The notes under the pieces: model-generated
What the model was told of the DNA's origin: nothing
Database searches by the model: none
The model's input: the letters and a program-made list of their open reading frames with translations, nothing else
Part shown: positions 3,539 through 60,344 of the stretch, piece by piece
Numbering within the stretch: the first letter of the stretch is position 1
How the letters are laid out: every line of letters begins with the position of its first letter
Program-made: the position numbers and the translations under genes
Origin: Burkholderiales bacterium
GTDB taxonomy: Bacteria > Pseudomonadota > Gammaproteobacteria > Burkholderiales > Burkholderiaceae_C
Assembly: GCA_016213205.1 (NCBI GenBank)
Contig: JACRAZ010000040.1
Location: 1 to 64,000 of the forward strand
Length of the DNA: 64,000 nt
Direction of reading: 5' to 3'

Positions 3539-3612
3539 CGCAGGTGCCGCCCGTTCGGGGCTCGTCCGTGTGTCATGGGGACGCATGGTCTTTCAGCCAC
3601 TGCAGCCAGTCC

Positions 3613-3626
3613 TTAAACCAAGTCAA
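3613..3626. promoter_or_regulatory. FNR/DNR-type box between nirE and nirS
   Basis: TTAAACCAAGTCAA has the 5-4-5 layout of the CRP/FNR-family site TTGAY-N4-RTCAA: one half perfect, the other degenerate (TTAAA). It lies 150 nt before the nirS start and 74 nt from the nirE start, so it could serve either direction. A weak -10 candidate (GACGAT, 3650-3655) follows at about the spacing seen at other boxes in this window; TAGGGT at 3637-3642 is too close to the box for a class II promoter. It is the weakest of the six boxes. Confidence 0.55.
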
Positions 3627-3776
3627 GGACGCAACCTAGGGTCAGCACCGACGATTCGCCCCGCTCGGAGTGAGGAATCGCAGCCCCTGCCCGACCCATC
3701 GAAAAGCTCCCTTCGATGGCACCAGTGCTGCAACAGGGTCGCTGACGATGGCGGCCCGCCTGACGGAGTGCGAACA

Positions 3777-7071: not shown

Positions 7072-7475
7072 TGCACACGGCGCACCGGCGCTGCGGCCCG
7101 CACGGGCTTGCACTCGCGCGCGCCGCGCTGGCCCTGGTGGCGCTGGCGCCCGCGCTGGCCCTGGCCCAGCCGGCCACCGGCGGCGGCGCCGCGGCCAGCG
7201 CAGCCACCGGCAACGGCCCGGTGGCCGAGGTGCTGATCCTCGACTACAAGTTCACGCCACCGGTGCTCACGGTGCGCGCCGGCACCACCGTGCGCTGGCT
7301 CAACCAGGAAAAGCGCACCACCCACTCGGTGCAGTTCACCCACCCGCCCGCGCCGGAAGGCGAGCGCATGTTCCCGGGCGAATCCTGGCTGCGGCGCTTC
7401 GACACTCCGGGGCGCTACGAGTACACCTGCGGCCCCCACCCGGAGATGAAAGGCCGCATCGACGTCACGCCATGA
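7071..7475 (+). CDS. periplasmic cupredoxin (plastocyanin/pseudoazurin-like)
   Basis: A 134-residue type-1 blue copper protein. A signal peptide ends near LALAQ (about residue 33), then a glycine/alanine linker leads to a single cupredoxin domain. The copper ligands are H85 (TTHSVQF), C120, H123 and M126 (CGPHPEM). Such proteins donate electrons to nitrite reductases, so it is a candidate mobile donor to NirS. The ATG at 7071 shares one base with the previous stop (TGATG); a GTG directly before it is an alternative start. Its own stop overlaps the next start (ATGA), so the three genes are translationally coupled. Confidence 0.88.
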   Translation: MHTAHRRCGPHGLALARAALALVALAPALALAQPATGGGAAASAATGNGPVAEVLILDYKFTPPVLTVRAGTTVRWLNQEKRTTHSVQFTHPPAPEGERMFPGESWLRRFDTPGRYEYTCGPHPEMKGRIDVTP

Positions 7476-46300: not shown

Positions 46301-47149
46301 GAGCTGGCGCGCGAAGCGCAGGCGCGCCATGTCCTGCACCGGTTGCGGCGCGGCCTGGAGCAGCGGCACGAATTCGAGCAGCAGGTTGCGCGCCGCGCGC
46401 AGCAGCACCTCGCCATCGGCGGTGTGCGGCAGGTAGCTGTCGGTCAGCCGGTACAGCACCGCCAGCGACTGCAGGCCCTGGCGCAGCGCTTCCGCGCCGG
46501 CCGCGGGCGAGGCGGTGGCGGTGCGCCAGGCGATTTCCTCGGCGCTGCGCAGGTGGTGGCGCGTGGCCAGCAGTTCGGCGCGCGCCGGCCCCAGGCCGCT
46601 GCGCTGCAGGTGCTCGGTGGCCCGCAGCGCGTGCGCATCCTCCACCGTGAGGCCATGGGTGTGGAAGAAGAACGCCGTCTCCACCTGCACCCGCTGCACC
46701 CAGCCGCACCAGGCCTCGAAGCTGTGCGTGGACAGCACGTAGCCGGCCGTGTTGCAGAAGATGATGTCCAGCAGCGGCCCCACGCGCTGCCACAGCACGC
46801 GGATGTAGGACTCCCAGGTGCCGTCGAAGGTGACGGCCAGCAGCACCAGGTCGGTGGGCGGCGGGGTGACACGCTCGCCCTCGGGCAGCAGGTCACGCAG
46901 CTCGAGCACCGTGACGCGGAACGAGTGGATCTTGGCCACGCGCTCCACGCCGTCCGACAGCGGCCGCACCAGCGCGTACTCGTGCAGCGAGCTGCGGCCT
47001 CCGTTGAGTGTCTTGAGCAGGCGCTTGGTGCGGGTGCGGTAGGTCAGCGTGTCCAGCGAGGGCACCAGGCCCGGTTTCACCGGCGCCAGCAGCGTGAGGT
47101 CGCTTGCGCCCACCAGGGTTCGGCTCTTGGTGATGAGTTCTGCCCGCAT
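43382..47149 (-). CDS. DyP-type peroxidase fused to a cytochrome P450-like domain
   Basis: The 1255-residue protein has three regions. Residues 1 to about 260 hold a region of uncertain type with a ferredoxin-like pattern (LVLLAVTFDGTWESYIRVLW). About 310-785 is a dye-decolorizing peroxidase: GFVDG (506-510, distal D509), CPLHAHIRRANPR (632-644, proximal candidate H637) and LLRRGMSYG. About 795-1255 is P450-like, with a possible thiolate ligand C1215 in HACPGYQAG. The usual ExxR is replaced (A1145, Q1148 in AAMQLRP). The ATG at 47149 has GGGGAG upstream. No signal peptide. Fungal PpoA is a precedent for a peroxidase-P450 union, but with a different peroxidase. Substrate unknown. Confidence 0.8.
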   Translation of the reverse strand: MRAELITKSRTLVGASDLTLLAPVKPGLVPSLDTLTYRTRTKRLLKTLNGGRSSLHEYALVRPLSDGVERVAKIHSFRVTVLELRDLLPEGERVTPPPTDLVLLAVTFDGTWESYIRVLWQRVGPLLDIIFCNTAGYVLSTHSFEAWCGWVQRVQVETAFFFHTHGLTVEDAHALRATEHLQRSGLGPARAELLATRHHLRSAEEIAWRTATASPAAGAEALRQGLQSLAVLYRLTDSYLPHTADGEVLLRAARNLLLEFVPLLQAAPQPVQDMARLRFARQLDWLFSPEVNAGPRPLPPLPPVADTSVLPEVQAGILRPYSGHTHGALLLLGFDTPAAGGRLLQLLLPMVSVASAPPAAGALAVNLAVTYEGLRALGLTEAQLAWFPQEFREGMAARASMLGDYRANHPRRWHLPQRNWRVPAGQPPVAVEMNAVHLLVQLRIGAPGNTVHALDDPAHPLHATLCALLDAPGLAPPAPPAGLQVLSVQAMRRLANAGGETVEHFGFVDGTSDPVFNAAESGPRYPNQVHLGEALLGHANEADFPPQPDPQRPDDAERLGFLRNGSFLVVRKLRQDVAALNEAVAAASTRTGLDGELLLAKMMGRWRAGPALAADGPGNDFHYAQDPEGRRCPLHAHIRRANPRQVALRQGEQPGGRRPRLLRRGMSYGPPQAEAPDAERGLVFMAYNASLSEQFEVVQRWIAGSNSTGGYSGQSDPLLGVPEVGQQRHFRFEHAKSGHPKAYTVALDAAPGVNEAPRPFVRLEWGTYAFAPSLPTLQRLQAIAAAAPAPAAVWSAAEGERRIQALFAAQGQRSEAENIAAWKALLEDPEAQEKYISAGVWAAIRQYHGGVLRTPYGVIVARHDLVMEVLGHGADRISVSGYRARMPASIGEIYLGLDDTSDGRYQALSSATNAAIQSIGEAEAFLLAKAFTGAVVAGYIAGEKKVAALSGAPRWELNLDVKEVSDRVLALLCQWWFGLPESSPHIVRGAWDWNWQPGDPTIYPSQFTAPSRYLFQPHPGDDVQHHGQDIGHALTASLLAWLAPFRDAGTVPPQPPFPGLPAGEPKLAKAILAAFPDRADDGLVARTFTGALMGMLPTVDGNLRLSLNEWLRDGSFWSLRAAWPLATGADELARAKGLLLAPLRAAMQLRPSPELVWRTAVAAGSIGGEGVAAGDRVVLGLVSATQQQLAEGVADVSPVFGGNRTPGSAHPTHACPGYQAGMGILLGMLAALVAVPETMKPSPVPLAFTFDGPMP

Positions 47150-47371
47150 CTCGCTCCCCTCGGCGCGCATGGCGCGCGGATCCGGTGTGTCGGCGCGCGA
47201 TGGCGCGCTGAGCCTCGTGTTGGTAGGAACCGCCTGGACCGCCGCATTGTGGGACGCAGGCCGCGCGGGCCACAAGCGCGCGCCGCGGGCGACCTCCCCT
47301 GCCCTGACGACGCCGGCCCGCGGCCAGCGCTTGTTAAGCTGTGCCCACCCAGGCAGAGCGGAGAGCCCCCG

Positions 47372-47956
47372 ATGAGCGTGCGAGACAGGGTGCGGGTGCA
47401 GGCGGTGCGGCTGTTGTCGGACCACTGGTCCACCCTGAAGACCACCACCTTCGAGTGGCTGCGCGGTGATGGCCAGTGGCAGACCTGCCAGCGCGAGACC
47501 TACGACAGGGGCGACGGCGCCGCGCTGCTGCTGATCGACCCCATGCGCCGCACCGTGGTGCTGACACGGCAGTTCCGCTACCCGGTGTACATGAACGGCC
47601 ACGATGCGCTGATGATCGAGGTGCCCGCCGGCGCGCTGGACGGCGCCAGCCCCGAGGACTGCATCCGCGCCGAGGCCGAGCAGGAAGTGGGTTACCGGGT
47701 GCACCGCTTGCGCAAGGTGTTCGAGGCCTTCATGAGCCCGGGCGCGGTGACCGAGCGGCTGCACTGCTTCGTGGCCGAGTACGGCCCCGCTGACCGCATC
47801 GGTGCCGGTGGCGGCGTGCATGCCGAGGGCGAGGACATCGAGGTGCTGGAACTCGCGCTGGACGAGGCGCTGGCGATGGTGGCGCGCGGCGAGATCCGCG
47901 ATGCGAAGACGATCATGCTGCTGCAGTACGCGGCGCTGCACGGCGCAGCCGGCTGA
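47372..47956 (+). CDS. Nudix hydrolase, NudK-like, with degenerate Nudix box
   Basis: The 194-residue protein matches GDP-mannose pyrophosphatase NudK/ADP-ribose pyrophosphatase in length and flow (LLSDHWSTLKTTTFEW at the start, VVLTRQFRYPVYMNG in the middle). The box GALDGASPEDCIRAEAEQEVGY aligns with NudK, but the Glu after G-x5 is Ser, and the first Glu of the EExG metal site is Gln, so activity may be reduced or altered. The ATG at 47372 diverges from the peroxidase-P450 gene across 222 nt. MgtC follows 10 nt later. Confidence 0.84.
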   Translation: MSVRDRVRVQAVRLLSDHWSTLKTTTFEWLRGDGQWQTCQRETYDRGDGAALLLIDPMRRTVVLTRQFRYPVYMNGHDALMIEVPAGALDGASPEDCIRAEAEQEVGYRVHRLRKVFEAFMSPGAVTERLHCFVAEYGPADRIGAGGGVHAEGEDIEVLELALDEALAMVARGEIRDAKTIMLLQYAALHGAAG

Positions 47957-47966
47957 CAATCCCGCG

Positions 47967-49271
47967 ATGGACCTGATCGTTGCCCGCAACTTCCTGATCG
48001 CGCTGCTGATCGGCGCGCTGATCGGCATCGAACGCGAGAAGAAGAAGGTCGCCGACCCGAGCCAGGCCTTCGGCGGCATCCGCACCTACACCCTGCTGGC
48101 GCTGCTGGGCGCGGCCTCGGCCTGGCTGGCGCGCGAGCTGGGCACGCCGTGGGTGTTTGCCGCCGTGCTGGCGGTGGTGGGCGCGGCGGTGGTGGCCAGC
48201 TACGTGCTGCAGGGCCGCGCGAGCAACGAGACCCCGGGCCTCACCAGCGAGGTGGCCGCGCTGGTGGTGTGCCTGCTGGGCGCGATGGTGGTGGTGGGCA
48301 ACCCCACGCTCGCGGTGGCGCTGGCGGTGATCACCTCGGCGCTGCTGGCCTACAAGCAGCCGCTGCACGGCATGGTGCAGCGCATCGGCATCGAAGACCT
48401 CTATGCCGGCATCAAGCTGCTGATCGCCTCGTGCATCGTGCTGCCGCTGCTGCCCGACCACACGCTGGACCGCTGGGGCGCGATCAACCCCTACACGCTG
48501 TGGCTGCTGGTGATCCTGATCTCTGGGCTGTCGCTGCTGGGCTACGTGGCGGTGCGCATGCTGGGCCACAGCAACGGCACGGCGATCACCGGCATCGCCG
48601 GCGGGCTGGTCTCGTCCACCGCCACCACGCTGAGCTTTGCGCGCACCAGCGCCGCGGACGCGGCCGCGGATGCCGCGCACCCCGCGCCACCGCATGCCAG
48701 CCACCACGCGCTGTGCGCCGGCATCCTGCTGTCCTGGCTGGTGATGCTGCTGCGCGTGGGCGTGCTGGTGGCGATGCTGAACCCCGCGCTGCTGCCCTCG
48801 CTGGCGGTGACGCTGGGTGCGATGACGCTGGCCAACGCCGGCTTCGCGCTGTGGCACTACCGCGCCAGCCGGCACGACAGCCCACGCGCCGGGCCGGCCG
48901 CGGTGGCGGTGCGCAACCCGTTCAGCCTGAGCGCGGCGATCCGCTTCGGCGCGCTGTTCGCGCTGGTGATGCTGTGCGTGAAGATCGCCCAGGCGCATGC
49001 GCCGGGTTTCGGCGTCTACCTGGTCTCGGCGCTGGCCGGGCTGGTGGACGTAGACGCGATCACGCTGTCCATGGCCGCCAGCGCGCAGGGCGGCGAGTTG
49101 CTGGTGCAGGCCAGCCGGGCCATCACGGTGGCGGTGCTGGCCAACACGCTGGTCAAGGGCGCGATGGTGCTGGTGCTGGGCCGCGGCCCGCTGCGTGGAC
49201 AGCTCACCCGCGCCGCCGGCGGCATCCTGGCCGTGGCGCTGCTGGCGCTGCTGGCGCAGGCCGCGGCCTGA
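47967..49271 (+). CDS. MgtC/SapB-family membrane protein with DUF4010
   Basis: The 434-residue protein with about 12 helices has an N-terminal MgtC-like domain (ARNFLIALLIGALIGIEREKK, FGGIRTYTLLALLGA) and a C-terminal DUF4010 half (GNGTAITGIAGGLVSSTATTLSFAR-like region near 205-230, LVDVDAITLSMAASAQGG near 365). The family is linked to magnesium or membrane-potential homeostasis; the exact job is unknown. Its TGA abuts the TCA (stop on the other strand) of ctaA with no gap. Confidence 0.86.
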   Translation: MDLIVARNFLIALLIGALIGIEREKKKVADPSQAFGGIRTYTLLALLGAASAWLARELGTPWVFAAVLAVVGAAVVASYVLQGRASNETPGLTSEVAALVVCLLGAMVVVGNPTLAVALAVITSALLAYKQPLHGMVQRIGIEDLYAGIKLLIASCIVLPLLPDHTLDRWGAINPYTLWLLVILISGLSLLGYVAVRMLGHSNGTAITGIAGGLVSSTATTLSFARTSAADAAADAAHPAPPHASHHALCAGILLSWLVMLLRVGVLVAMLNPALLPSLAVTLGAMTLANAGFALWHYRASRHDSPRAGPAAVAVRNPFSLSAAIRFGALFALVMLCVKIAQAHAPGFGVYLVSALAGLVDVDAITLSMAASAQGGELLVQASRAITVAVLANTLVKGAMVLVLGRGPLRGQLTRAAGGILAVALLALLAQAAA

Positions 49272-50270
49272 TCAGCGCACCCAGCGCAGCAGCAGCGTCA
49301 GCATCAGCGCGGCGCCGAGGTTGTGCGCCAGCGCCGCCGCCAGCGGCAGCGTGCCGGCCGACAGCCACAGGCCCAAGCCCATCTGCACCACCACCAGGCC
49401 CAGCAGCAGGGCCGCGCCGCGCACGCGGCCCTGGCGCCAGGCCAGCAGGGCGGTCGGCAACAGCAGCAGCAGCAGCACGATGCCCGCCACCCGGTGCAGC
49501 CCCAGCGCCAGCGCGCCGGCCGGGTTCACCGGCCCGGCCGTCGCCGCGGCGAACACCGGTTCGCGCCAGGGGTCGAGCGCGGCCCAGGGCCAGCCTTGCT
49601 GCGCCGCGGCGGCCAAGCAGCCGCCCAGGCCTGAACAGCTCAGGCTCGCGAAGGAGGCGCTCACCAGCCCGCCCAGCAGCACCTGCACGAGCACGCCGCC
49701 CAGCGCCAGCGCGGCCCAGGGCCGCAGCGCACCACGTGGTGGCACGGCAGGCACGGCCAGGCGGGCCGCCAGCGCCAGCATCGCGAAGCCGCCCAGCAGG
49801 TTGCCCAGGGCCACCACCGGCAGCCGCGAGGCCGCCGTGCGCAGGCCCAGCACGGCCAGGAACAGGGCCACCGCCAGCAGCGCCAGCGCGGTGACGAGTT
49901 CGTCGGTGCGCCGCGGTCGCTCGCCCAGCGTGGACAGCACCAGCACGATCACCAGCACCAGCGCCACTGTGGCCACCACCCGGTGCGCCAGCCGCGCCAG
50001 CGCCACCTCGTGCGAGACCGTCTCGTTCTGCGCCATGCCCAGGCCCATCGTGGCGGCGCCGGCAGCGCCGGCCTGTGCCCCGGCCTGCTGCTCGCGCAAG
50101 GCCTGCCCGTAGCACTGGGGCCAGGGCGCGCAGCCGAGCCCGGCCTTGGACAGGCGCAGGAACGCGCTGAGGCTGGTGATGGCCAGCACTAGCACCGCGC
50201 ACAGCAGCGCGATGCGGTGGAAGCTCTGGCGGCGCCGGGCGGTATCCGGGGCGGGGGAGGCAAGCGTCAT
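49272..50270 (-). CDS. ctaA: heme A synthase CtaA/COX15
   Basis: The 332-residue membrane protein oxidises heme O to heme A. Eight helices were counted, with paired histidines near helix ends: HRIALL (about 18), ARLAHRVVA, LGLHRVAG and LAHNLGAALM. CAPWPQCYG, with the loop cysteine pair, sits near 47-55 and is typical of COX15/CtaA. The ATG at 50270 was chosen; an upstream in-frame start would add 20 Gly/His-rich residues. It diverges from the heme-copper operon that holds ctaB, so both heme-O and heme-A steps flank it. Confidence 0.9.
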   Translation of the reverse strand: MTLASPAPDTARRRQSFHRIALLCAVLVLAITSLSAFLRLSKAGLGCAPWPQCYGQALREQQAGAQAGAAGAATMGLGMAQNETVSHEVALARLAHRVVATVALVLVIVLVLSTLGERPRRTDELVTALALLAVALFLAVLGLRTAASRLPVVALGNLLGGFAMLALAARLAVPAVPPRGALRPWAALALGGVLVQVLLGGLVSASFASLSCSGLGGCLAAAAQQGWPWAALDPWREPVFAAATAGPVNPAGALALGLHRVAGIVLLLLLLPTALLAWRQGRVRGAALLLGLVVVQMGLGLWLSAGTLPLAAALAHNLGAALMLTLLLRWVR

Positions 50271-50471
50271 GGCGGGTCCGTGGCCGGGGTGTGCGCCGGC
50301 ATTCTCGGCGTTGCGCAGGCGCCCCGGCAACGCCCCCGAGCCGGCACGCGCGACCTGCCGGATTCTTGTTCTATTCCATTTTTTTGCCGGACCCCGCTGG
50401 CCAGAATCGCCTGCGCCTTATCACCCAGACGGGTGAGAGGCCCCCATTCAGACACGCCGAAGGAGTTGCCG

Positions 50472-50669: not shown

Positions 50670-51209
50670 ATGAGCGCCATCCTGCCGCCCGCAGAACGAC
50701 TTTGGTGGAAACACCCACTGGACCGCGTCGAGGGGACGTGGATCGTCATTGCCTTGATCTGGTGCCTGATCATGTTCTTCATGATGGTCGGCTGGCACAT
50801 CTACGGCAAGCAGAACCTGTCCACCGAAACCTACAAGACCACGCCCGAGAAATTCACCGCCAAGGCGCAGGCCATGGTCGACAAGTACACCGTGCGCACC
50901 GAGACGGCCGACAAGACCCCGGTGGTCGCGCCGCCCGCGGGCAGCGACATCTACATGGTGGCTCGTCTGTGGAGCTTCTGGCCGATTCTCGAGCTCGAGA
51001 AGAACAAGACCTACCGATTGCACCTGACGGCGATGGACTACAACCACGGCTTCTCGCTGCAGCCGGCCAACATCAACATCCAGGTCGTGCCCGGCTACGA
51101 GCACGTGGTCACCGTCACGCCGAATCAGAGCGGCACTTACTCGGTGGTGTGCAACGAGTACTGCGGGATCAACCATCACACGATGGTCGGCCGCATCTAC
51201 GTGAAGTAA
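50670..51209 (+). CDS. norY: CuA subunit II of heme-copper NO reductase-like enzyme (NorY)
   Basis: The 179-residue protein has one N-terminal helix (about 22-44) and a cupredoxin domain with CuA ligands H126, C161, E163, C165, H169 and M172 (CNEYCGINHHTM). It lacks the second helix of aa3 subunit II. With the next gene it forms the two-subunit layout of ba3 oxidases and of the sNOR (norSY) NO reductases of ammonia oxidisers. The following ctaB and SCO genes strengthen the sNOR reading, since norSY sits beside senC in Nitrosomonas. An ordinary oxidase cannot be excluded. Confidence 0.75.
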   Translation: MSAILPPAERLWWKHPLDRVEGTWIVIALIWCLIMFFMMVGWHIYGKQNLSTETYKTTPEKFTAKAQAMVDKYTVRTETADKTPVVAPPAGSDIYMVARLWSFWPILELEKNKTYRLHLTAMDYNHGFSLQPANINIQVVPGYEHVVTVTPNQSGTYSVVCNEYCGINHHTMVGRIYVK

Positions 51210-51224: not shown

Positions 51225-52925
51225 ATGTCCACTTCAACCACATACCGCACCTGCCCGCGCAGCGGGCTGCAATTCGAGGCCAATGCCGAGAAGCTGATGA
51301 TCGTCAACGCCTTCGTGGCGGTGGTCTTCCTGCTCATTGGCGGCGTGCTGGCCATCGGCGTGGCGCTCACGCGCTGGCCCGCGATCCACTGGCTGCCGGC
51401 CGACACCTTCTACCAGGTGCTCACGGCGCACGGCATCGACATGCTGATCTTCTGGATCATCTTCTTCGAAGTCGCGGTGCTGTACTTCGCGTCCTCCACG
51501 CTGCTGCGATGCAGGCTGGCCACACCGAAGATCGCCTGGCTCGCGTTCTGGCTGATGCTCATCGGCGCGCTGATGAACAACATCGCGGTGTTCCAGGGCG
51601 GCTCCAGCGTCATGATGACGTCCTACGTGCCGATGATGGCCGCGCCGCACTTCTACCTCGGGCTGATCCTGTTCGCGGTGGGGGCGCTGATCGCCTGCTT
51701 CGTGTTCTTCGGCACGCTGGTGGTGGCCAAGCGCGACAAGACCTACCAGGGCTCGGTGCCGCTGGTCACCTTCGGCGCCATCACCGCGGCGATCATCGCG
51801 GTGTTCACCATCGCCTCCGGCGCGATCATCCTGATCCCGACCTTCCTGCAATCGGTGGGCCTGGTGAAGGAAGTCGATGCGCTGGTCTACCGCACCATCT
51901 GGTGGGCCTTCGGCCACTCGTCGCAGCAGATCAACGTCTCGGCCCACATCGCCATCTGGTATGCGGCGGCGGCCATCGCCTTCGGCGCCAAGCCGATGAG
52001 CGAGCGCGTCAGCCGTGGCGCCTTCCTGCTGTACATCCTGTTCCTGCAGCTGGCCAGCGCGCACCACCTGCTGGCCGACCCGGGCCTGTCCACCGGCTGG
52101 AAGGTCGTCAACACCAGCTACTTCATGTACTTCGCGGTGCTGGCCTCGATGATCCACGGCCTCACGATCCCCGGCGCGATCGAAGTGGCACAACGCGCCA
52201 AGGGCTACAACAAGGGCCTGTTCGAGTGGCTGCGCAAGGCACCGTGGAGCAACCCCACGTTCTCGGGCGTGTTCATCGCGATCATCGGCTTCGGCTTCCT
52301 GGGTGGCATCTCCGGCGTGATGATGGGCACCGAGCAGCTGAACATGATCATCCACAACACCATCTACGTGCCGGGGCACTTCCACGCCACGGTGGTGGTG
52401 GGCACCACGCTCACGTTCATGGCGCTCACGTACTTCCTGCTGCCGGTGCTGTTCCGTCGTGAAGTGATCAACCCCACGCTGGCGAAGTGGCAGCCGTACC
52501 TCTTCGGCCTGTCGATGTACTTCTTCTGCCTGGTGATGATGGGTGCCGGCACGCTGGGCGTCTCGCGCCGGCACTGGGACATGGCCTTCCAGGGCCATGC
52601 GCTGGCCTACGAATGGCCGGGCGCGGCCTACCTGATGATGGGCCTGGTGGGCATTGCCGGCATCGCGGCCATCATCGGTGGCGCGATCTTCGTGTACATC
52701 ACGGTGGGCACGCTGCTGTGGGGCAAGCGGCTGGACGAAGGCGCCAAGAGCGCCCGCTTCACGCCGATTCCGCCCACCGCGCCCACGGCCGTGGCGCAGA
52801 CCTACGGCTCGGCAGGTTTTGCCGCGCCGGGCACCTTCGCCCTCGCGATGGTGTTCCTGGTGGCCTTCGTGCTGTACTACTTCATCAACTGGAAGTACCT
52901 GTCTCAACTCTGGGGCTTGAGCTGA
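51225..52925 (+). CDS. norS: heme-copper catalytic subunit, sNOR-like (NorS)
   Basis: The 566-residue subunit I has ligands H69 (low-spin heme), H231 and H280/H281 (CuB), and H385/H387 (GHFH; high-spin and low-spin heme). Instead of the oxidase helix-VI motif HPEVY it has HSSQQ at 231-235: the crosslinked tyrosine position is Q235. Loss of that tyrosine argues against normal O2 reduction and for an NO reductase of the sNOR type. cNOR and qNOR motifs (HLWVE) are absent. It lies 15 nt after norY. The call NorS is from ligands and context, not a tree. Confidence 0.78.
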   Translation: MSTSTTYRTCPRSGLQFEANAEKLMIVNAFVAVVFLLIGGVLAIGVALTRWPAIHWLPADTFYQVLTAHGIDMLIFWIIFFEVAVLYFASSTLLRCRLATPKIAWLAFWLMLIGALMNNIAVFQGGSSVMMTSYVPMMAAPHFYLGLILFAVGALIACFVFFGTLVVAKRDKTYQGSVPLVTFGAITAAIIAVFTIASGAIILIPTFLQSVGLVKEVDALVYRTIWWAFGHSSQQINVSAHIAIWYAAAAIAFGAKPMSERVSRGAFLLYILFLQLASAHHLLADPGLSTGWKVVNTSYFMYFAVLASMIHGLTIPGAIEVAQRAKGYNKGLFEWLRKAPWSNPTFSGVFIAIIGFGFLGGISGVMMGTEQLNMIIHNTIYVPGHFHATVVVGTTLTFMALTYFLLPVLFRREVINPTLAKWQPYLFGLSMYFFCLVMMGAGTLGVSRRHWDMAFQGHALAYEWPGAAYLMMGLVGIAGIAAIIGGAIFVYITVGTLLWGKRLDEGAKSARFTPIPPTAPTAVAQTYGSAGFAAPGTFALAMVFLVAFVLYYFINWKYLSQLWGLS

Positions 52926-53015: not shown

Positions 53016-53912
53016 ATGAACACCACCGTTGCCGTTGCCAGCCGTCGCCCCGCCGGCCTGGCGCGCGAAGTACTCGGTCTCTTCAAGCTGCGCATCGGCG
53101 TGATGATCATGATCACCGCGCTGGTGGGCATGGTGGTCACGCCAGGCGCCAGCCTCAGCCTCGCGCAGGTGCTGGTGCTGGCCTTGTCGGTGCTGGTGGC
53201 CTCCGGCGCCGCCGGGGCCTACAACCAGTACTACGAGCACAACGTCGACCACCTGATGGCGCGCACCCGTGGCCGCCCCTTCGTCACCGGCCGGCTGCGC
53301 CACTCGCCGCTGTGGCTGCTGCTGATCGGCGGGCTGCTCGCCGGCGCGGTGGCCGCGGCCTGGTGGTCGCTCAATGCCCAGGCGGCGCTGTACAACTTCC
53401 TCGGCGCCTTCTTCTACGCGGTGGTCTACACCGTGTGGCTCAAACGCCGCAGCTGGCTCAACATCGTGATCGGTGGCCTGGCCGGCAGCTTCGCGGTGCT
53501 GGCCGGCGCCGCGGCGGTGGATCCGCAACTGGGCCCGCTGCCGCTGCTGCTGGCGCTGGTGCTGTTCCTGTGGACACCGCCCCACTTCTGGAGCCTGGCC
53601 ATCGCCAACCGCGGCGACTACGCCGCCGCCGGCGTGCCCATGCTACCGGTGGTGGTGGGCCCCGAGCGGGCCGCCCGCGTGGTGCTGCACAGCACGGTGG
53701 CGCTGGTGGTGGCCTCGCTGCTGCCGGCGTTCTTCGGTGCCGGCCCGATCTACCTGGCCGGCGCCGTGGCCGGGGGCGGCTACTTCATCGTGAAGGCCTG
53801 GCGCCTGGCACGGGCACCGAGCCGGCCCACCGCGATGGGCTCGTTCTTCGCCTCGCTGGTGCAGCTGAGCCTGCTGCTGGCGGCGGCCACGGTCGACGGA
53901 CTGATGCGATGA
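53016..53912 (+). CDS. ctaB: protoheme IX farnesyltransferase (heme O synthase)
   Basis: The 298-residue UbiA-family enzyme of the inner membrane attaches a hydroxyethylfarnesyl tail to protoheme. It carries the prenyl-diphosphate motif NQYYEHNVDHLMARTRGRP (about 70-88) and the second motif WTPPHFWSLAIANRGDYAAAGVPMLPV (about 188-214, with conserved HFW). It has about nine helices. The gene is between the heme-copper subunits and SCO, so it supplies heme O (or, with ctaA, heme A) to them. Confidence 0.94.
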   Translation: MNTTVAVASRRPAGLAREVLGLFKLRIGVMIMITALVGMVVTPGASLSLAQVLVLALSVLVASGAAGAYNQYYEHNVDHLMARTRGRPFVTGRLRHSPLWLLLIGGLLAGAVAAAWWSLNAQAALYNFLGAFFYAVVYTVWLKRRSWLNIVIGGLAGSFAVLAGAAAVDPQLGPLPLLLALVLFLWTPPHFWSLAIANRGDYAAAGVPMLPVVVGPERAARVVLHSTVALVVASLLPAFFGAGPIYLAGAVAGGGYFIVKAWRLARAPSRPTAMGSFFASLVQLSLLLAAATVDGLMR

Positions 53913-53982: not shown

Positions 53983-54828
53983 ATGACCCGACTGTGCTGG
54001 TGCCTGCTGCGGTGGCTGTTCGCGCTGTGCGCGATGGCCGGCGCGCAGGCGCAGCCCGCGCTCGATGCCGACGCGGCCCTGCGCGACAGCCAGGCCGCCA
54101 TCGGTCGCCAGCTGTCCGACCATGCGCTGCTGGACCGCCAGGGCCAGCCCACCCGGTTGTCGGCCTACCGCGGCAAGCCGCTGCTGGTGAGCTTCATCTA
54201 CACCGGCTGCTTCCAGATCTGCCCCACGACCACGCGCTCGCTGGCCAGTGCCGTCGCCGCGTTGAGCGAGACCTTCGGCGCGGACAAGTTCAACGTCGTC
54301 AGCATCGGCTTCAACCAGCCCTTCGATTCACCCGCGGCGATGCGCACCTTCGCCAAGCAGATGGGCATCGATGCGCCGAACTGGGACTTCCTCAGCCCGC
54401 CGCCGGCCAGCGTGGACGCACTGACACGCGAGTTCGGCTTCCGCTACCAGGCAACGCCGGCCGGCTTCGACCACGTGCTCACCGTGACGGTGGTGGATGC
54501 GCAGGGCAAGATCGTGCAGCAGGTGTACGGCGAACGCCTCTCGCGCGACAAGCTCGGCGAGCCGCTGCGCCGCCTGCTGCGTGATGCCCCGCTGCCGGCC
54601 GAATCGGCGCTCACCGGCCTGGTCGAGCGGGTGCGCATCCTGTGCACCGTGTACGACGAGCAGACCGGCACTTACCGCACCAACTACGGCCTGGTGCTCG
54701 AGATCGCCGGCGGCGTGACCTTCGCGCTGGCCATGATCTGGTTCTTCGTTGCCGAATGGCGAACCCGCCGCAGGCTGCGCCGCGCGCTCAGCCGGGCCGG
54801 CCCGCCGCTGCCGCAGCCCCCGCAGTAG
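53983..54828 (+). CDS. SCO/SenC-type copper chaperone
   Basis: The 281-residue thioredoxin-fold protein has copper ligands C76 and C80 (TGCFQICPTT) and H164 (GFDHVLT). An N-terminal signal or anchor (about 5-24) places it in the periplasm, and a C-terminal membrane helix (about 236-258) is an extra over typical Sco1, giving a two-anchor form. It probably builds CuA in NorY. senC is a neighbour of norSY in Nitrosomonas, as here. The ATG at 53983 follows ctaB after 70 nt. Confidence 0.9.
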   Translation: MTRLCWCLLRWLFALCAMAGAQAQPALDADAALRDSQAAIGRQLSDHALLDRQGQPTRLSAYRGKPLLVSFIYTGCFQICPTTTRSLASAVAALSETFGADKFNVVSIGFNQPFDSPAAMRTFAKQMGIDAPNWDFLSPPPASVDALTREFGFRYQATPAGFDHVLTVTVVDAQGKIVQQVYGERLSRDKLGEPLRRLLRDAPLPAESALTGLVERVRILCTVYDEQTGTYRTNYGLVLEIAGGVTFALAMIWFFVAEWRTRRRLRRALSRAGPPLPQPPQ

Positions 54829-54861: not shown

Positions 54862-56466
54862 GTGCCCCGGTTCCCCATGCATCCCGCCCGTGCCCTGCGC
54901 CTGGCCTCGCTCGATGGCTACCGCCGCCTCGAACAGGCGTTCGATGCGCCCTTCGGCGCCGCGCTGAACCCCTGGCGCCACCTGGGCGCGCTGGGCTTCG
55001 GGTTGTTCTGGCTGCTGGCCATCAGCGGCATCTACCTGTATGCGGTGCTGGACACCTCGGCCCAGGGCGCCTGGCAGTCGATCGACACGCTCTCGCGCGA
55101 GCAGTGGTACCTGGGGGGTGTGCTGCGCAGCCTGCACCGCTATGCGGCCGATGCCTTCATGCTGGTGATGGCCGCTCACCTGCTGCGTGAGCTGCTCGTC
55201 GGCCACTACGCCCGCTTCCGCCGCTTTTCCTGGCTCACCGGCGTGCCGCTGCTGCTGTTCGGTTTTGTCTGCGCGGTGGGGGGCTTCTGGCTCAACTGGG
55301 ACCAGCTCGGCCAGTTCTCGGCCCAGGCCACCGCCGAGTGGCTGGATGCGCTGCCGCTGTTCGCCGCCCCGCTGACCCGCAACTTCCTGCAGGTGGACGC
55401 GGTCAGCGACCGGCTGTTCTCGCTGTTCGTCTTCGTGCACCTGGGCATGCCGCTGCTGCTGGTGTTCGGCCTGTGGTTCCACATCCAGCGCATCAGCCGC
55501 GCGGCGGTGTTTCCGCCGCGCGCGCTGGCGCTGGGCACGCTGGCGGCGCTGCTGGGGCTGGCCCTGGCCGCGCCGGTGATGAGCCATGCGCCCGCCAACC
55601 TGGCCATCGAGCCAGCCCAGCTGGCGCTGGACTGGATCCTGCTGTTCATCCACCCGCTGGCCCGGGCCACCAGCCATGGCGCGGTGTGGGCCCTGCTGGC
55701 CGCGGCGCTGGCAGCGCTGCTGCTGCTGCCCTGGCTGCCCGCGGCCCGCAGCGCGCCGCAGCGCAGCCCCCTTGCCCCACCGGCCCCGGTGGCGGTGGTG
55801 GACCCGGACAACTGCAACGGCTGCCGCCGATGCTTCGACGACTGCCCCTACGCCGCCGTCACGATGGTGCCGCACCCGAACAAGCGCCTGCGCCAGCTGG
55901 CCGAGGTGGATGCCGATCTGTGCGCGAGCTGCGGCATCTGTGTCGGCGCCTGCCCATCCTCCACGCCCTTCCGCAGCGCGGCCGAGCTCGTCACCGGCAT
56001 CGACATGCCCTCCTCCCCGATCGGCCGGCTGCGCCACCAGCTGCAGCAGCGCCTGGCGGCCATGGAGGCCGGTGCACCGCGCCTCGTCGTGTTCGGCTGC
56101 GACCGGGGTGCCCGCGTGGACACGCTGGACGCACCGGACGTGGCCGCCTTCAGCCTGCTGTGCGCGGGGCAGTTGCCGCCCTCCTTCGTTGAGTACGCGC
56201 TGCGCGACGGGGCCGACGGCGTGCTCGTCGCCGGCTGCCAGGGCGTGGGCTGCGAATACCGGCTGGGCCAGCGCTGGACGGCCGAGCGCCTGGCCGGCAC
56301 CCGCGAGCCGCACCTGCGCGCCAGCGTGCCGCGCGAGCGGCTGCTGCAGGCCCAGGCCGATGCCGGCCAGGAGCCCACCTTGCGTGAGGCGCTGCAGCGC
56401 CTGCGCCAGCAGATCAACCCCGCCGCCGCCCCGGCGGCACCCACGGATGCCCCCGCGCATGACTGA
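54862..56466 (+). CDS. cytochrome b-2x[4Fe-4S] ferredoxin-MvhD-like fusion
   Basis: The 534-residue fusion has residues about 35-215 as a cytochrome b N-terminal domain with the four heme ligands H92/H106 and H193/H207. Two more helices follow, then two [4Fe-4S] motifs (C318/321/324/328 and C354/357/360/364). The C-terminal part is like MvhD/FlpD, the delta subunit that links hydrogenase and heterodisulfide reductase (C413, C434, C459, C464). It could pass electrons between quinol and a soluble carrier. Start: GTG 54862 or ATG 54877; neither has a ribosome site. It overlaps the next gene by 8 nt. Confidence 0.78.
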   Translation: MPRFPMHPARALRLASLDGYRRLEQAFDAPFGAALNPWRHLGALGFGLFWLLAISGIYLYAVLDTSAQGAWQSIDTLSREQWYLGGVLRSLHRYAADAFMLVMAAHLLRELLVGHYARFRRFSWLTGVPLLLFGFVCAVGGFWLNWDQLGQFSAQATAEWLDALPLFAAPLTRNFLQVDAVSDRLFSLFVFVHLGMPLLLVFGLWFHIQRISRAAVFPPRALALGTLAALLGLALAAPVMSHAPANLAIEPAQLALDWILLFIHPLARATSHGAVWALLAAALAALLLLPWLPAARSAPQRSPLAPPAPVAVVDPDNCNGCRRCFDDCPYAAVTMVPHPNKRLRQLAEVDADLCASCGICVGACPSSTPFRSAAELVTGIDMPSSPIGRLRHQLQQRLAAMEAGAPRLVVFGCDRGARVDTLDAPDVAAFSLLCAGQLPPSFVEYALRDGADGVLVAGCQGVGCEYRLGQRWTAERLAGTREPHLRASVPRERLLQAQADAGQEPTLREALQRLRQQINPAAAPAAPTDAPAHD

Positions 56467-56977
56467 CTCCCCCCGCACCGGTCTCACCGCCTGGTTGGGC
56501 CAGGCCCTGCTCTACGGCGCGTTTGCGCTGGTGATCGGCGTGTTCTCGCGCTGGCCGGTCTACCACCACCTCGCGCCCGACCAGGCCTTGCTCAAGCTCA
56601 GCTTCAACCACCAGGGCAAGCCGGTGTCCGAGTGCGTGCGCGCCAGTGCCGAAGAACTGGCCAAGCTGCCACCCAACATGCGCGCTCCGATGCGCTGCCC
56701 GCGCGAACGCTCGCCGATCACGGTGGAGCTGGACGTGGACGGCCGCTCCGCGCTGCGCCATGTGGCGCTGCCCAGCGGCTTGTCGCGCGACGGCGCCTCG
56801 GCCGTGTACCACCGCATGGCGCTGGGCGCCGGCACGCACCACATTGCCGTGCGGCTGAAGGACGACGTGCGCGGCAGCGGCTTCGGCTACACGCGCGAGG
56901 CCACCGTCACGCTCAAGCCGGCCCAGATCCTGGTGATCGACTTCGACCCCGAAAAAGGCGGGATCACGCTGCAATGA
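56459..56977 (+). CDS. membrane-anchored protein of unknown function
   Basis: The 172-residue protein has one N-terminal helix (about 12-31) and a periplasmic domain that reads as two beta-rich halves (KLSFNHQGKPVSECVRA and VELDVDGRSALRHVALP). Cysteines are at positions near 60 and 80. No known family was recognised by sight. A role like FixH/CcoH, small assembly or accessory anchors of heme-copper enzymes, is only positional. It overlaps both neighbours (8 and 4 nt), so it is tightly coupled with the following heme-copper gene. Confidence 0.68.
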   Translation: MTDSPRTGLTAWLGQALLYGAFALVIGVFSRWPVYHHLAPDQALLKLSFNHQGKPVSECVRASAEELAKLPPNMRAPMRCPRERSPITVELDVDGRSALRHVALPSGLSRDGASAVYHRMALGAGTHHIAVRLKDDVRGSGFGYTREATVTLKPAQILVIDFDPEKGGITLQ

Positions 56978-58431
56978 ACACCTTGACCACCCCCCTGTCT
57001 GGCGCCAGCCCCCGGCAAGGCGCCGCCTACAGCCCGGCCGGCCACGACTACGCGCTCAGCCTGCCGCAACAGGGCCTGCAGCAGCGGCTGGCGCGCGCCT
57101 GGCTGTGGCTGGGCCTGCTGGCGCTCATCGGCTCCGGGCTGTTCTCGGTGCTGCTGGTGCTCTCGCGCACGCCGGGGGTCAACCAGTGGCTGCCGGTGGC
57201 CGATTTCTTCCGCGTGGCGCTGGTGGTGCACGTGGACCTCTCGGTGCTGGTGTGGTTCATCGCGATGGCCGGCCTGCTGTGGAGCCTGAACAGCACGCCC
57301 GGCGGCCGCGCGTGGGGCTGGACGGCGCCGGTGCTGTGTGCCATCGGCACCGGGTTGATGTCGCTGGCCCCCTTCGTCGACCGCGCCGAGCCCATCATGG
57401 CCAACTACATCCCGGTGCTCGACGGCCCGGTGTTCCTGGCCGGCCTGGTGGTCTTTGCCTTGGGCACCGGCGTGCTGGTGCTGCGCAGCCTGTGGCTCGC
57501 ACCCCGGCTGGGCCTCGGGTTCGACGCTGGCGGCGCACTGCGCTTCGGCCTCAATGCCAGCGTGGTGGCCACCGCGGTGGCGCTGATGGCCTTTGCCTGG
57601 TCGCTGGCCGTGCTGCCCACGCCGCTGGCCGGCAAGGCCTACTACGAGATCCTGTTCTGGGGCGGCGGCCACGCGCTGCAGTTCACCTGGACGCTGCTGA
57701 TGCTGGTGGCCTGGCTCTGGCTGGCCGGTGCCTGCGGCGCGCCGGTGCGCCTGTCGCCGCGGCTGGCGCTGGCGATGTTCGCGCTGGCCCTGGTGGCGGT
57801 GTTCGTCACGCCCTACGCGTACCTGGCCTATGACATCGCCTCGGTCGAGCACCGCAACCTGCTCACCTGGGCCATGCGCGTGGGCGGCGGCCCGGCCATC
57901 CTGCCGATCGGCCTGGCGGTGCTGCTGGCGCTGCGCGCGGCGCCGGCCAGCGCCAACACGCCGGTGACGCGGCCGCTGCGCGCCGCGCTGCTGTCCTCGG
58001 TGCTGCTGTTTGCGGCCGGCGGGCTGATCGGCGTGTTCATCCAGGGCAGCAACGTGCGCATCCCGGCGCACTACCACGGCTGCATCGTCGGCGTCACGCT
58101 GGCGCTGATGGGTGCGGTGTACCACCTGCTGCCGCGCCTGGGCTACGGCACCCCCGGCTCGCGTTGGGCCGCATGGCAGCCCACGCTGTACGGCGCCGGG
58201 CAGTTGATGCACATCGTCGGCCTGGTCTGGTCGGGCGGCTATGGCGTGCAACGCAAGGTGGCCGGCAGCGAGCAGGTGCTGCGCAGCACCGCCGAGGTGG
58301 CCGGCATGGGCCTGATGGGCCTGGGCGGGCTGATCGCCATCATCGGCGGCGTGCTGTTCGTGGTGGTGGTGATCCAGTCGATGCGCCATCCGGCACCCGC
58401 GGCCGTGCGTGCAACACCGGGGGCCACATGA
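56974..58431 (+). CDS. divergent heme-copper oxidase superfamily catalytic subunit
   Basis: The 485-residue protein with about 12 helices matches subunit I in ligands: H86 (low-spin), H233 in helix VI (GGGHALQF), and H366/H368 (PAHYHG). The CuB pair in helix VII is not His-His; the aligned spot is E292-H293 (VEHRNL). No Tyr follows H233 at the oxidase distance. It is not CcoN, NorB or aa3 by motif. Replacement of a CuB histidine by Glu suggests iron or a different metal and NO reductase-like chemistry, as in several recently proposed NOR families. The cytochrome b genes on both sides overlap it by 4 nt or sit one gene away. Confidence 0.72.
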   Translation: MNTLTTPLSGASPRQGAAYSPAGHDYALSLPQQGLQQRLARAWLWLGLLALIGSGLFSVLLVLSRTPGVNQWLPVADFFRVALVVHVDLSVLVWFIAMAGLLWSLNSTPGGRAWGWTAPVLCAIGTGLMSLAPFVDRAEPIMANYIPVLDGPVFLAGLVVFALGTGVLVLRSLWLAPRLGLGFDAGGALRFGLNASVVATAVALMAFAWSLAVLPTPLAGKAYYEILFWGGGHALQFTWTLLMLVAWLWLAGACGAPVRLSPRLALAMFALALVAVFVTPYAYLAYDIASVEHRNLLTWAMRVGGGPAILPIGLAVLLALRAAPASANTPVTRPLRAALLSSVLLFAAGGLIGVFIQGSNVRIPAHYHGCIVGVTLALMGAVYHLLPRLGYGTPGSRWAAWQPTLYGAGQLMHIVGLVWSGGYGVQRKVAGSEQVLRSTAEVAGMGLMGLGGLIAIIGGVLFVVVVIQSMRHPAPAAVRATPGAT

Positions 58432-60344
58432 TCCAGCGTCTGCAAGCCCTGCTGCAGTGGATGTTCCTGCAGGTCGAGGGCCTGTTCAACCGCGCCTTCG
58501 GCGACCGGCTGAACCCGATCTACCACCTGGGCGCGATCAGCTTCTACCTGTTCTGGTTGGTGGCCGGCAGCGGGCTGTACCTGTATGCCTTCTTCGAGAC
58601 CGGCGTGGCCGGCGCCTACGACTCGGTGGAGGCGCTCACGCACCACCAGTGGTTCGCCGGCGGTGTGCTGCGCAGCATCCACCGCTACGCATCGGACGCG
58701 ATGGTGCTGACCATGCTGCTGCACATGCTGCGCCACTTCGCGTTCGACCGCTTCCGGGGCTTTCGCTGGTTCTCCTGGGTCAGTGGCGTGTCGCTGATCT
58801 GGGGCGTGTACATCTCGGGCATCAACGGCTACATGCTGCCCTGGGACAAGCTGGCGCAGTTCGTCATCGTCGCCAGCTTCGAATGGCTGGATTGGCTGCC
58901 CGGCTTCGGCGGCACGCTGGTGCGCAACTTCATCTACACCACCAGCGTCAACGACCGCTTCTTCTCGCTGCTGTCGTTCATGCACATCGGCATCCCGCTG
59001 GTGGTGCTGCTGCTGATGTGGATCCACGTGCAGCGCGTGCCCAAGGCACGCACCAATCCCCCGCGGCCGATCATGATCAGCGTCACGCTGATGCTGCTGG
59101 TGATGTGCGCCGTGAAGCCCGTGCTCAGCCAGGGCGGCGCGGCCCAGCTGGACCAGGCCGTGCCCGATGTGCAGCTCGACTGGTTCTACCTCGCCGTCTT
59201 CCCGCTGTTGTACCTATCGCCGCTGGGCCAGGTGTGGGCGCTGCTGGTGGGTGCCAGCACCGTGCTGGCGCTGCTGCCCTGGCTGCCGCCGCGCTGGCGG
59301 CGCGGCCCGCAGGGCAGCTTCCAGATGCACCTGCATGGCAGCCCCCGCGTGGTGAGCGTGCGTCAAGGCGAAACCCTGCTCGAAGCCGGCCTGCGCGCGG
59401 AGATCCCGCTGCCCTTCAGCTGCCGCTCCGGCGGTTGCGGCCAGTGCCGCGCCAGCCTGCTCAACGGCCGCGTCAACGACGGTGGGGCGCAGGCCGCGTC
59501 GCTCACGCCCCAGCAGCGCCAGCGTGGCGACATCCTGCTGTGCTGTGCCTGTGCCCTGTCGGATGTGGAGATCGAGGTCGAGGGCCTGGACCTGCAGGCC
59601 GAAGGCGAGCAGTCCCGCTACACCACGCGCGTGGTGGGCCTGGACCGCCTCTCGCCCGACGTGATGCGGCTGACGCTGGCCCTGATGGACGGCCGGCGCC
59701 TGCGCTACCAGGCCGGCCAGTACATCCAGGTGGTGCTCGAGGATGGGCAGCGGCGCGCCTACTCGTTCACCGCGCCCGGCGACGAGACCGACCGCATCGA
59801 ACTGCACGTGCGCCTGATGCCCGGCGGCCGCTTCACCACCCAGGTGTTCGAGCGCATGAAGCTCGGCGACGAACTGCAGATCGAAGGTCCGATAGGCGCC
59901 TTCGTGCTGCGCGAGCCGAGCCCGAAGCCGGTGATCTTCGTGGCCGGGGCCACCGGCTTCGCGCCGGTGAAGAGCCTGCTGGAGGAGGCGTTCCGCTCGG
60001 GCATCGACAAGCCGCTGCACTTCTACTGGGGCGTGCGGCGGCCCGCCGACCTGTACCTGCGCGAGCTGCCCGAATCCTGGGCGCGCGAGCACGCGAACTT
60101 CCACTTCGTGCCCGTGATTTCCGAGCCCGACGCGGCCGATGGCTGGAATGGCCGCACAGGGCTCGTCCACGAAGCAATCCTGCAGGATTTTCCGGACCTC
60201 TCGGGCCACCTGGTCTATGCCTGCGGTTCCCTGAAGATGGTGGAAGCCGCGCGCCCGGCCTTCGTGGCGCAAGGCCTGAGCGACGACGCGTGCTTCTCCG
60301 ACGCCTTCACCCCCGCCGCTGCTGCGCCCGCGCAATTGACTTGA
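58428..60344 (+). CDS. cytochrome b-[2Fe-2S]-FAD/NAD(P)H oxidoreductase fusion
   Basis: The 638-residue chain has a cytochrome b N-terminal domain at about 25-210 with H85/H99 and H186/H200. Two helices follow, then a plant-type [2Fe-2S] domain at about 300-385 (C332, C337, C340 and C372 or C375). An FNR-type flavin domain (RAYSFTAPGDE near 443-453) and a nucleotide domain (VAGATGFAPVKSLL near 505-518, YACGSLKMVEAA) complete it. It could move electrons between NADH and heme b and so to the quinone pool or the neighbouring heme-copper subunit. The ATG overlaps the previous stop by 4 nt. The next FNR/DNR box overlaps its stop codon. Confidence 0.8.
   Translation: MIQRLQALLQWMFLQVEGLFNRAFGDRLNPIYHLGAISFYLFWLVAGSGLYLYAFFETGVAGAYDSVEALTHHQWFAGGVLRSIHRYASDAMVLTMLLHMLRHFAFDRFRGFRWFSWVSGVSLIWGVYISGINGYMLPWDKLAQFVIVASFEWLDWLPGFGGTLVRNFIYTTSVNDRFFSLLSFMHIGIPLVVLLLMWIHVQRVPKARTNPPRPIMISVTLMLLVMCAVKPVLSQGGAAQLDQAVPDVQLDWFYLAVFPLLYLSPLGQVWALLVGASTVLALLPWLPPRWRRGPQGSFQMHLHGSPRVVSVRQGETLLEAGLRAEIPLPFSCRSGGCGQCRASLLNGRVNDGGAQAASLTPQQRQRGDILLCCACALSDVEIEVEGLDLQAEGEQSRYTTRVVGLDRLSPDVMRLTLALMDGRRLRYQAGQYIQVVLEDGQRRAYSFTAPGDETDRIELHVRLMPGGRFTTQVFERMKLGDELQIEGPIGAFVLREPSPKPVIFVAGATGFAPVKSLLEEAFRSGIDKPLHFYWGVRRPADLYLRELPESWAREHANFHFVPVISEPDAADGWNGRTGLVHEAILQDFPDLSGHLVYACGSLKMVEAARPAFVAQGLSDDACFSDAFTPAAAAPAQLT

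Follow-up and report, generated by a model that had tools for sequence, protein, structure and literature searches.

Cytochrome b–ferredoxin–FlpD fusions and a small anchor protein accompany nitric oxide reductases of the eNOR type in Burkholderiales and other lineages

Genes of the eNOR operon

The window considered here is a stretch of 64,000 nucleotides from a Burkholderiales bacterium (GenBank assembly GCA_016213205.1, contig JACRAZ010000040.1, positions 1 to 64,000 of the forward strand). Four overlapping open reading frames (ORFs) at 54862–60344 constitute the 3' half of an operon of eight genes, which begins at 50670 and the second gene of which likely encodes the nitric oxide (NO) reductase eNOR. 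The four ORFs code for a cytochrome b–ferredoxin–FlpD fusion (further referred to as bFlpD, 54862–56466), a small membrane protein (the anchor, 56459–56977), a heme-copper-oxidase-fold protein (HCO2, 56974–58431) and a cytochrome b–flavin reductase fusion (bFNR, 58428–60344), all on the forward strand, with overlaps of 8, 4 and 4 bases. The first-pass annotation of this sequence had reported the four overlapping genes, and these were confirmed. Their interpretation as a free-standing complex was rejected, as they continue the eNOR operon from 50670.

Relatives were collected by scanning an alignment of HCO2 over the contigs of GTDB genomes. Of the 564 relatives found, the best 80 were used as loci; their titles are largely those of beta- and some gammaproteobacteria, including Acidovorax, Comamonas, Simplicispira, Ramlibacter, Castellaniella and Piscinibacter. 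One of them, a metagenome-assembled contig titled Bordetella parapertussis (L086), apparently coincides with a contig from the genus of the window (G001:C80), and its title is probably mislabelled. Complete ORFs were retained for conservation counts: 80 for HCO2, 78 for the anchor, 71 each for bFlpD and bFNR, 65 for eNOR and 64 for subunit II. The alignments used for folding and searching contained, in addition to the window, 46 of the 80 HCO2, 41 of the 78 anchor, 29 of the 65 eNOR, 27 of the 71 bFlpD and 25 of the 71 bFNR sequences.

Directly upstream of the four genes and on the same strand lie the genes for a short subunit II (50670–51209), a COX1-family protein (51225–52925), the heme O synthase CyoE (53016–53912; TIGR01473, 263 bits against a cut-off of 210) and a copper chaperone of the SCO1/SenC family (SCO, 53983–54828; PF02630). 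Subunit II is a cupredoxin (PF00116) with the complete CuA motif CNEYCGINHHTM, and its residues C161, C165, H169, M172 and H126 are invariant (65/65). The COX1-family protein (PF00115, 219 bits) carries GHSSQQ in helix VI, AHH in helix VII and PGHFH in helix X, and its six metal ligands H69, H231, H280, H281, H385 and H387 are retained in all 66 sequences. The Gln of GHSSQQ stands where other family members have the cross-linked Tyr. All 65 relatives with a complete gene have this motif, and in the most divergent copy examined (L171) it reads AHSTQQ, with the Gln retained. Since GHSSQQ, the six metal-binding His and the CuA ligands are all present upstream, the four genes follow a complete eNOR. 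eNOR is a family of the heme-copper superfamily (PMC8756737, PMC10734462), reportedly treated also by Murali et al. 2024 (doi 10.1073/pnas.2316422121), and replacement of the cross-linked Tyr by Gln is given as its diagnostic mark (PMC8756737, Table A4 and section 2.7.1). It is also reported from Chloroflexota and Halobacteria. The gene at 51225 encodes this known but rarely studied enzyme, with reduction of NO to N2O as the predicted activity.

Searches with Pfam and NCBIfam bear out the domain content that was claimed for the four genes. By Pfam, bFlpD (534 aa) consists of Cytochrome_B, two 4Fe-4S and FlpD domains, and bFNR (638 aa), of Cytochrome_B, Fer2, FAD_binding_6 and NAD_binding_1. 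The four axial heme His expected in each cytochrome b half are invariant in both fusions (72/72 each, the window counted), as are the eight ferredoxin Cys of bFlpD (72/72), the [2Fe-2S] Cys of its FlpD/MvhD domain (C413, C434, C459 and C464; 72/72) and the [2Fe-2S] site of bFNR (C332, C337, C340 and C372; 72/72). bFNR is a paralogue of bFlpD in the cytochrome b half, which matches the bFlpD model at 2.7e-105. Hydropathy plots judged by eye suggest about six membrane spans, the iron-sulfur (FeS) or flavin domains being on the side of the N-terminus, presumably the cytosol.

The cytochrome b halves had been described as lacking the quinol-oxidizing (Qo) and C-terminal domain of bc1. This is correct for the C-terminal half and for the PEWY motif, which is absent from both bFlpD and bFNR. 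However, the chain does not stop at helix D: in both proteins it continues with a hydrophobic stretch containing an invariant Asp-Trp (D257-W258 in bFlpD, D251-W252 in bFNR; 72/72 each). This pair sits where bc1 carries PEWY, the Glu of which is not kept, and the stretch has the appearance of a Qo motif that has degenerated. No Rieske protein or cytochrome c1/f was found among the ten genes of the operon region scanned with Pfam; a cytochrome c1 is encoded elsewhere in the genome.

The anchor (172 aa) has one predicted N-terminal transmembrane helix followed by a beta-sandwich domain (AlphaFold2 predicted local distance difference test, pLDDT, 94.6), and its Cys59 and Cys80 are invariant (79/79). 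It belongs to no known family: neither Pfam nor NCBIfam gave a match, a sequence search of the PDB yielded nothing at the limits used, and the fold search gave no match at E ≤ 0.001, with low TM-scores.

Divergently from the operon, a CtaA/COX15-like protein is encoded at 49272–50330 on the reverse strand (PF02628, 104 bits). It differs from canonical heme A synthase by Asn177 (46 of 46 aligned copies), in place of what we take to be a heme-ligand His, and by Arg113 (45 of 46), in place of what we take to be the Glu of the ExxH motif. With this Glu and one His lost, it is unlikely to be a heme A synthase of the ordinary, O2-dependent kind; for contrast, the CtaA encoded beside one of the HCO2 genes outside the operon reads EYIHR.

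Downstream of the operon are NapD (60908) and an ORF at 61317 that we label NapA, and nirS is located at 3528–5468 (forward strand) of the same window, so that nirS, nap and eNOR all lie within 64 kb. Near nirS, a second ORF matches cytochrome d1 (6857–8695, forward strand). The genome of the window also encodes nosZ. Its COX1-family genes comprise aa3 and two cbb3-like genes, all three identified by motif reading, as well as eNOR and HCO2; no gene similar to cNOR or qNOR was found in this assembly, which is 94% complete. As eNOR is the only NOR-like COX1 gene in a genome with nirS and nosZ, it is likely the NO reductase of this denitrifier. It is not the sole one everywhere, given that the three genomes searched for this purpose (those of L050, L058 and L101) contain a further long COX1-family gene, with open frames of 768–793 codons, which by its length is probably qNOR. 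Two denitrifying strains with the operon, Castellaniella defragrans DSM 12141 and Acidovorax sp. 210-6, have this probable qNOR gene in an open frame of 768–783 codons.

Of 65 sequences preceding subunit II, 37 contain an FNR-type site TTGAT-N4-ATCAA with at most two mismatches, against approximately 4.6 expected from base shuffles. The window's own subunit II gene has no such site at this threshold, the best candidate having three mismatches, and therefore we make no regulatory claim for this genome. An Rfam scan of the window gave no match. Among other genes of the window, the ORF at 43382–48085 (reverse strand, 1567 residues) has a weak Dyp_perox_C match (DyP-type peroxidase) as its sole domain found; its C-terminal part looks P450-like by eye.

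Gene order and co-occurrence across genomes

The synteny in relatives on which the first-pass annotation had staked its proposal was found. The exact order subunit II–eNOR–CyoE–SCO–bFlpD–anchor–HCO2–bFNR is observed in 50 of the 80 loci, and a chance string of genes was rejected on this ground. Among the 50 loci that extend over at least 19 kb, eNOR and the anchor are present in all 50, bFlpD and bFNR in 47 each, and at least one of the cytochrome b fusions in all 50; the nine loci without eNOR are short (4–14 kb). Variants include swapped genes in some loci, two anchors (L100 and L113), absence of bFlpD (L084 and two Castellaniella loci, L096 and L101) and absence of bFNR (L097, L109 and L122). 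When both genes of a junction are complete, they overlap in 57 of 70 cases for bFlpD/anchor (5 swapped), in 67 of 78 for anchor/HCO2 and in 46 of 71 for HCO2/bFNR (7 swapped).

Outside this set, the same order from subunit II through eNOR, CyoE, SCO and bFlpD to the anchor occurs on a plasmid of the alphaproteobacterium Defluviimonas, with GHSSQQ and both anchor Cys present. There the six genes are annotated as a hypothetical protein, a cbb3-type oxidase, heme o synthase, SCO, a cytochrome b N-terminal protein and a hypothetical protein, respectively. A hemerythrin-family gene immediately follows the anchor in this plasmid operon (L253, 12092–12496). In another group of the same phylum, bFlpD and the anchor follow or adjoin subunit II–eNOR–CyoE–SCO in 9 of 17 regions, the cluster being without bFNR and HCO2. 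In L168, the end of whose cluster is shown by L230, a short-form HCO2 lies approximately 5 kb beyond subunit II. The four-gene set as originally delimited is therefore not the conserved unit. The widest conserved core is subunit II–eNOR–CyoE–SCO–bFlpD–anchor, in which no other proteins accompany eNOR as constantly as bFlpD and the anchor; operonic HCO2 and bFNR are found in some lineages only, operonic HCO2 being distributed over Burkholderiales, some gammaproteobacteria and one further lineage.

As the 80 loci were selected by HCO2, they cannot show how frequently eNOR occurs without it; this is addressed by the 17 regions above and by sets of 100 relatives and of 398 genomes. The 100 relatives overlap the 80 loci (L086 apparently corresponds to the L027 contig, and L111 to L032). 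They contain HCO2 in 15 genomes and eNOR in 15, both being present in 14, and the exceptions fit contig ends: in G015, HCO2 is on a contig that starts within CyoE, and in G011 a broken eNOR is followed by CyoE, SCO, bFlpD and the end of the contig. A strong NirS match was obtained for 14 of the 15 genomes with HCO2 (the remaining one is 61% complete), compared to 23 of the 85 others. NirK scored above the cut-off in 8 of the 100, none of them with HCO2.

In the 398 genomes, sampled across the phylum, eNOR was found in 30 and full-length bFlpD in 34, with 29 genomes having both (Fisher's exact test, p ~ 8e-38, uncorrected for kinship). In other words, bFlpD is present in 29 of the 30 genomes with eNOR and in 5 of the 368 others. 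G168 is the only eNOR genome without it; bFlpD without eNOR was observed in G219, G235, G243, G322 and G372, of which four are 69–82% complete and G243 is split into 730 contigs. The count of HCO2 in the eNOR genomes (30 of 30) was not used, since the HCO2 model also matches eNOR, which in G258 is its only match. bFlpD is thus a near-obligate partner of eNOR, and its linkage and that of the anchor to eNOR come close to the strongest that genomic data can provide.

HCO2, a heme-copper-fold protein whose CuB site is degraded

HCO2 (485 aa) matches COX1 with 44 bits against a cut-off of 34.8. It is predicted to adopt the 12-helix fold of subunit I (AlphaFold2 pLDDT 89.6), for which Foldseek returned ba3, cbb3, aa3 and NOR structures (best E-value 6e-9); a sequence search of the PDB gave no match at the limits used. 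The heme His H86 in helix II and H366 and H368 in helix X are invariant (81/81), both the low-spin and the high-spin ligands being kept, and the RK pair is retained. Helix VI reads GHxLQF, with His233-x-x-Gln236 conserved in 81 of 81 sequences of the operon set and in all 61 other homologues.

The site of CuB is different. In a profile-profile alignment with eNOR, the CuB His pair of helix VII faces Ala282 (70/81) and Tyr283 (80/81; His in the remaining one), and the position of the catalytic Tyr/Glu/Gln is occupied by Phe (80/81). The pair is found in no readable one of the 61 further homologues (3 operonic, 12 long and 46 short), L218 being unreadable at this point; L182 was left out of the counts of helix VII residues and of neighbours for the short forms. 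Position 283 is occupied by a single His in 25 of the 46 short forms, by Phe in 13, by Tyr in 4 and by other residues in the rest. Since so many of them keep one His, the CuB site outside the operon is degraded rather than uniformly emptied, and a metal site with two His or with His and Tyr is conceivable.

All 33 HCO2-type proteins used for a tree with eNOR, aa3 and cbb3 form a single group (SH-aLRT support 100, by a quick method and with a program warning about long branches). The next group is eNOR, and operonic copies of HCO2 appear in two places. Operonic HCO2 also occurs in two loci of the family coded f71 (L171 and L214), both genomes having two tandem bFlpD genes.

Outside the eNOR operon, short-form HCO2 adjoins CtaA (at most 200 bp apart or overlapping) in 23 of 46 loci, counted regardless of kinship: 13 of these are co-directional, all from family f71, and 10 are on opposite strands, from five other family codes. 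No CtaA is seen in the available stretch of 22 loci, some of which are ended by the contig. An ABC-2 type transporter pair follows the HCO2-type gene in L168, L175, L176, L198 and L199. The long or tetratricopeptide repeat (TPR)-associated homologues cluster with genes of the ResB/ResC type, multiheme cytochrome c and an NHL-repeat protein; these loci are L041, L042, L174, L177, L178, L209, L210, L217 and L218, of which L041, L042 and L174 have the repeat by Pfam. Such neighbours (CtaA, ABC-2 transporter, ResB/ResC, multiheme cytochrome) argue for a role of HCO2 in heme or cytochrome handling, not in NO reduction. HCO2 as the main NO reductase, the role initially proposed for it, was rejected: it has no CuB His pair and occurs without eNOR beside CtaA or cytochrome c biogenesis genes. 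HCO2, a member of a widespread clade, may act in handling hemes or as a diheme relay, or may have a remodelled site.

Proposed electron exchange with eNOR and comparison with known systems

We favour a reading, which we hold at even balance, that the four genes belong functionally to eNOR, with bFlpD and the anchor as an eNOR-specific electron-transfer unit of the membrane and HCO2 as an accessory. The cofactors are accounted for most economically by an exchange of electrons between eNOR and carriers in the cytosol. The cytosolic FeS domains would be docked by a dehydrogenase via FlpD or, in the paralogous bFNR, fed with NADH via the FAD domain, and would exchange electrons with the two membrane-spanning b hemes. 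At the periplasmic side the b hemes, helped by the beta domain of the anchor, would reach the CuA and heme centres of eNOR or a nearby quinone, and eNOR would then convert NO to N2O. HCO2, probably holding hemes without a normal binuclear site, could serve as an electron relay or, together with the CtaA-like protein, in heme delivery to eNOR and its maturation. The electron link between soluble carriers and NO suggested in the first-pass annotation is plausible, since the cytochrome b–FlpD fusion co-occurs with an NO reductase; the likely NO-reducing centre is not HCO2 but the adjacent eNOR (51225), a gene which that annotation had not included in the set.

Several observations weigh against this picture. 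Since CuA normally receives its electrons from a cytochrome c or a cupredoxin in the periplasm, and the genome has a cytochrome c1, eNOR could do without a donor in the cytosol. Movement of electrons from the cytosol outwards would be at the expense of membrane potential. None of the operon genes was recognised as a partner dehydrogenase for FlpD, and the location of HCO2 beside CtaA suggests a role in biogenesis more than one in electron transfer. In the other 8 of the 17 regions mentioned above bFlpD was not found near eNOR; it is encoded elsewhere in 7 of these 8 genomes and not in G168. Finally, the link to NirS is not general: the operon is also present in Castellaniella, to which nirK and norBC are ascribed (PMC11046850).

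A bolder form of the same reading, which we advance tentatively, is that eNOR forms a supercomplex with its own cytochrome b–FeS/flavin partner, NO respiration thereby taking electrons directly from cytosolic carriers or passing them to these and bypassing the chain from quinone through bc1 to cytochrome c, and that HCO2 founds a new CuB-less clade of the heme-copper superfamily, to be found beside CtaA or ResB/ResC and acting in heme handling, as a relay or with a remodelled His-Gln-Tyr site.

The rival that survives best, although we consider it doubtful, is a module for maturation. In this case the hemes of A-type heme-copper enzymes would be made, held, inserted or, during insertion, reduced by HCO2 in concert with CyoE, SCO and the CtaA-like protein. 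The electrons would come from the cytochrome b–FeS/flavin proteins, perhaps because O2-dependent heme A synthesis is unavailable under denitrifying conditions. The adjacency to CtaA in half of the short-form loci fits this explanation, as does L167, where CtaA and HCO2 occur without any other respiratory gene recognised among the neighbours scanned. The same is true for the company of ResB/ResC and multiheme cytochromes kept by the long homologues, for CyoE and SCO within the operon and for the loss of the ExxH Glu and one His from the CtaA-like protein. On the other hand, bFlpD and the anchor accompany eNOR even when the cluster is without HCO2 and bFNR, CtaA-linked HCO2 is found in genomes with no bFlpD match, and nearly as many short-form loci show no CtaA as show it. 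Moreover, for a chaperone step, two b hemes, two cubanes and an FlpD domain would be a great deal of machinery.

It is improbable that HCO2 acts as a further terminal reductase, in which a remodelled site would receive electrons from NADH or ferredoxin through the b hemes and pass them to NO or another acceptor. HCO2 does retain the His ligands of both hemes, the RK pair and the invariant His233 and Gln236, and with Tyr283, or the single His of the short forms, at the position of the second CuB His a different metal site is conceivable. The helix VII His pair is nevertheless missing from every readable homologue, Phe replaces the catalytic residue, a complete eNOR is present in the same operon, and HCO2 also occurs without the cytochrome b fusions. 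About equally improbable is a quinone-linked bifurcation or reverse transfer, with quinol oxidised at a degenerate Qo-like Asp-Trp site, one of its electrons passing to eNOR and the other, via the b hemes, to FlpD/ferredoxin or NAD+: the bc-type four-His cytochrome b with the residual Asp-Trp and the FeS and FAD/NAD domains agree with it, and cytochrome b and ferredoxin genes lie beside heme-copper genes in archaeal iron-oxidation clusters, but the operon genes scanned include no Rieske protein or c-type cytochrome, the PEWY Glu is not kept, and transfer from quinol to NAD+ or ferredoxin is steeply uphill.

A near-obligate cytochrome b partner that can be recognised from sequence offers a direct handle on how eNOR is fed with electrons. 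The matter has a wider bearing, as NO reduction yields the greenhouse gas N2O. The partner is also an improved marker by which to find eNOR in genomes, the enzyme itself being readily taken for a cytochrome c or cbb3 oxidase, as on the Defluviimonas plasmid. If confirmed, the tie between heme biogenesis genes and a clade in which the CuB site is degraded would give the heme-copper superfamily a branch other than ordinary terminal reductases. eNOR is considered capable of energy conservation (PMC8756737, PMC10734462). The literature searched, which excludes the operon descriptions of the main eNOR paper, contains no description of the partnership of eNOR with a cytochrome b fusion, and our claim of novelty is limited accordingly. 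It contained nothing on the combination of MvhD, cytochrome b and heme-copper proteins, and among the matches listed there was nothing of the kind of HCO2, i.e. heme-copper proteins without CuB ligands.

Among known systems, the closest for the catalytic part is eNOR as published (PMC8756737, PMC10734462), with which the 51225 gene shares the diagnostic Gln, the six metal-binding His and an immediately preceding gene for a CuA-type subunit II; the passages concerned cover subunits I and II and mention no cytochrome b–FeS/flavin partner, anchor or HCO2-like paralogue. With the cytochrome b of bc1/b6f and with archaeal SoxC (PF00033, the NCBIfam matches being under the cut-off) the fusions have in common two pairs of heme His spaced 14 residues apart. 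In contrast to bc1/b6f, they have Asp-Trp instead of PEWY and ferredoxin–FlpD or ferredoxin–FAD–NAD domains in place of the C-terminal half, and the operon genes include neither a Rieske nor a c1 partner. bFlpD resembles the HdrA2/MvhD modules (NF040770 matches its C-terminal part far below the cut-off) in that FlpD/MvhD, with its four invariant Cys, comes after two 4Fe-4S motifs, whereas here the module is fused to a membrane cytochrome b and lacks the HdrA flavin domain. The only paper in the literature searched that combines FlpD with cytochrome b and nitric oxide reductase contains, in a domain table (Table A3 of PMC8756737), a cytochrome b6–FlpD protein from Chloroflexi (RME88945.1). Compared by this domain listing (C1 cytochrome, cytochrome b6, DMSOR-beta-like, FlpD), the protein has, like bFlpD, cytochrome b6, ferredoxin and FlpD domains in one polypeptide and, unlike bFlpD, an additional C1 cytochrome domain.

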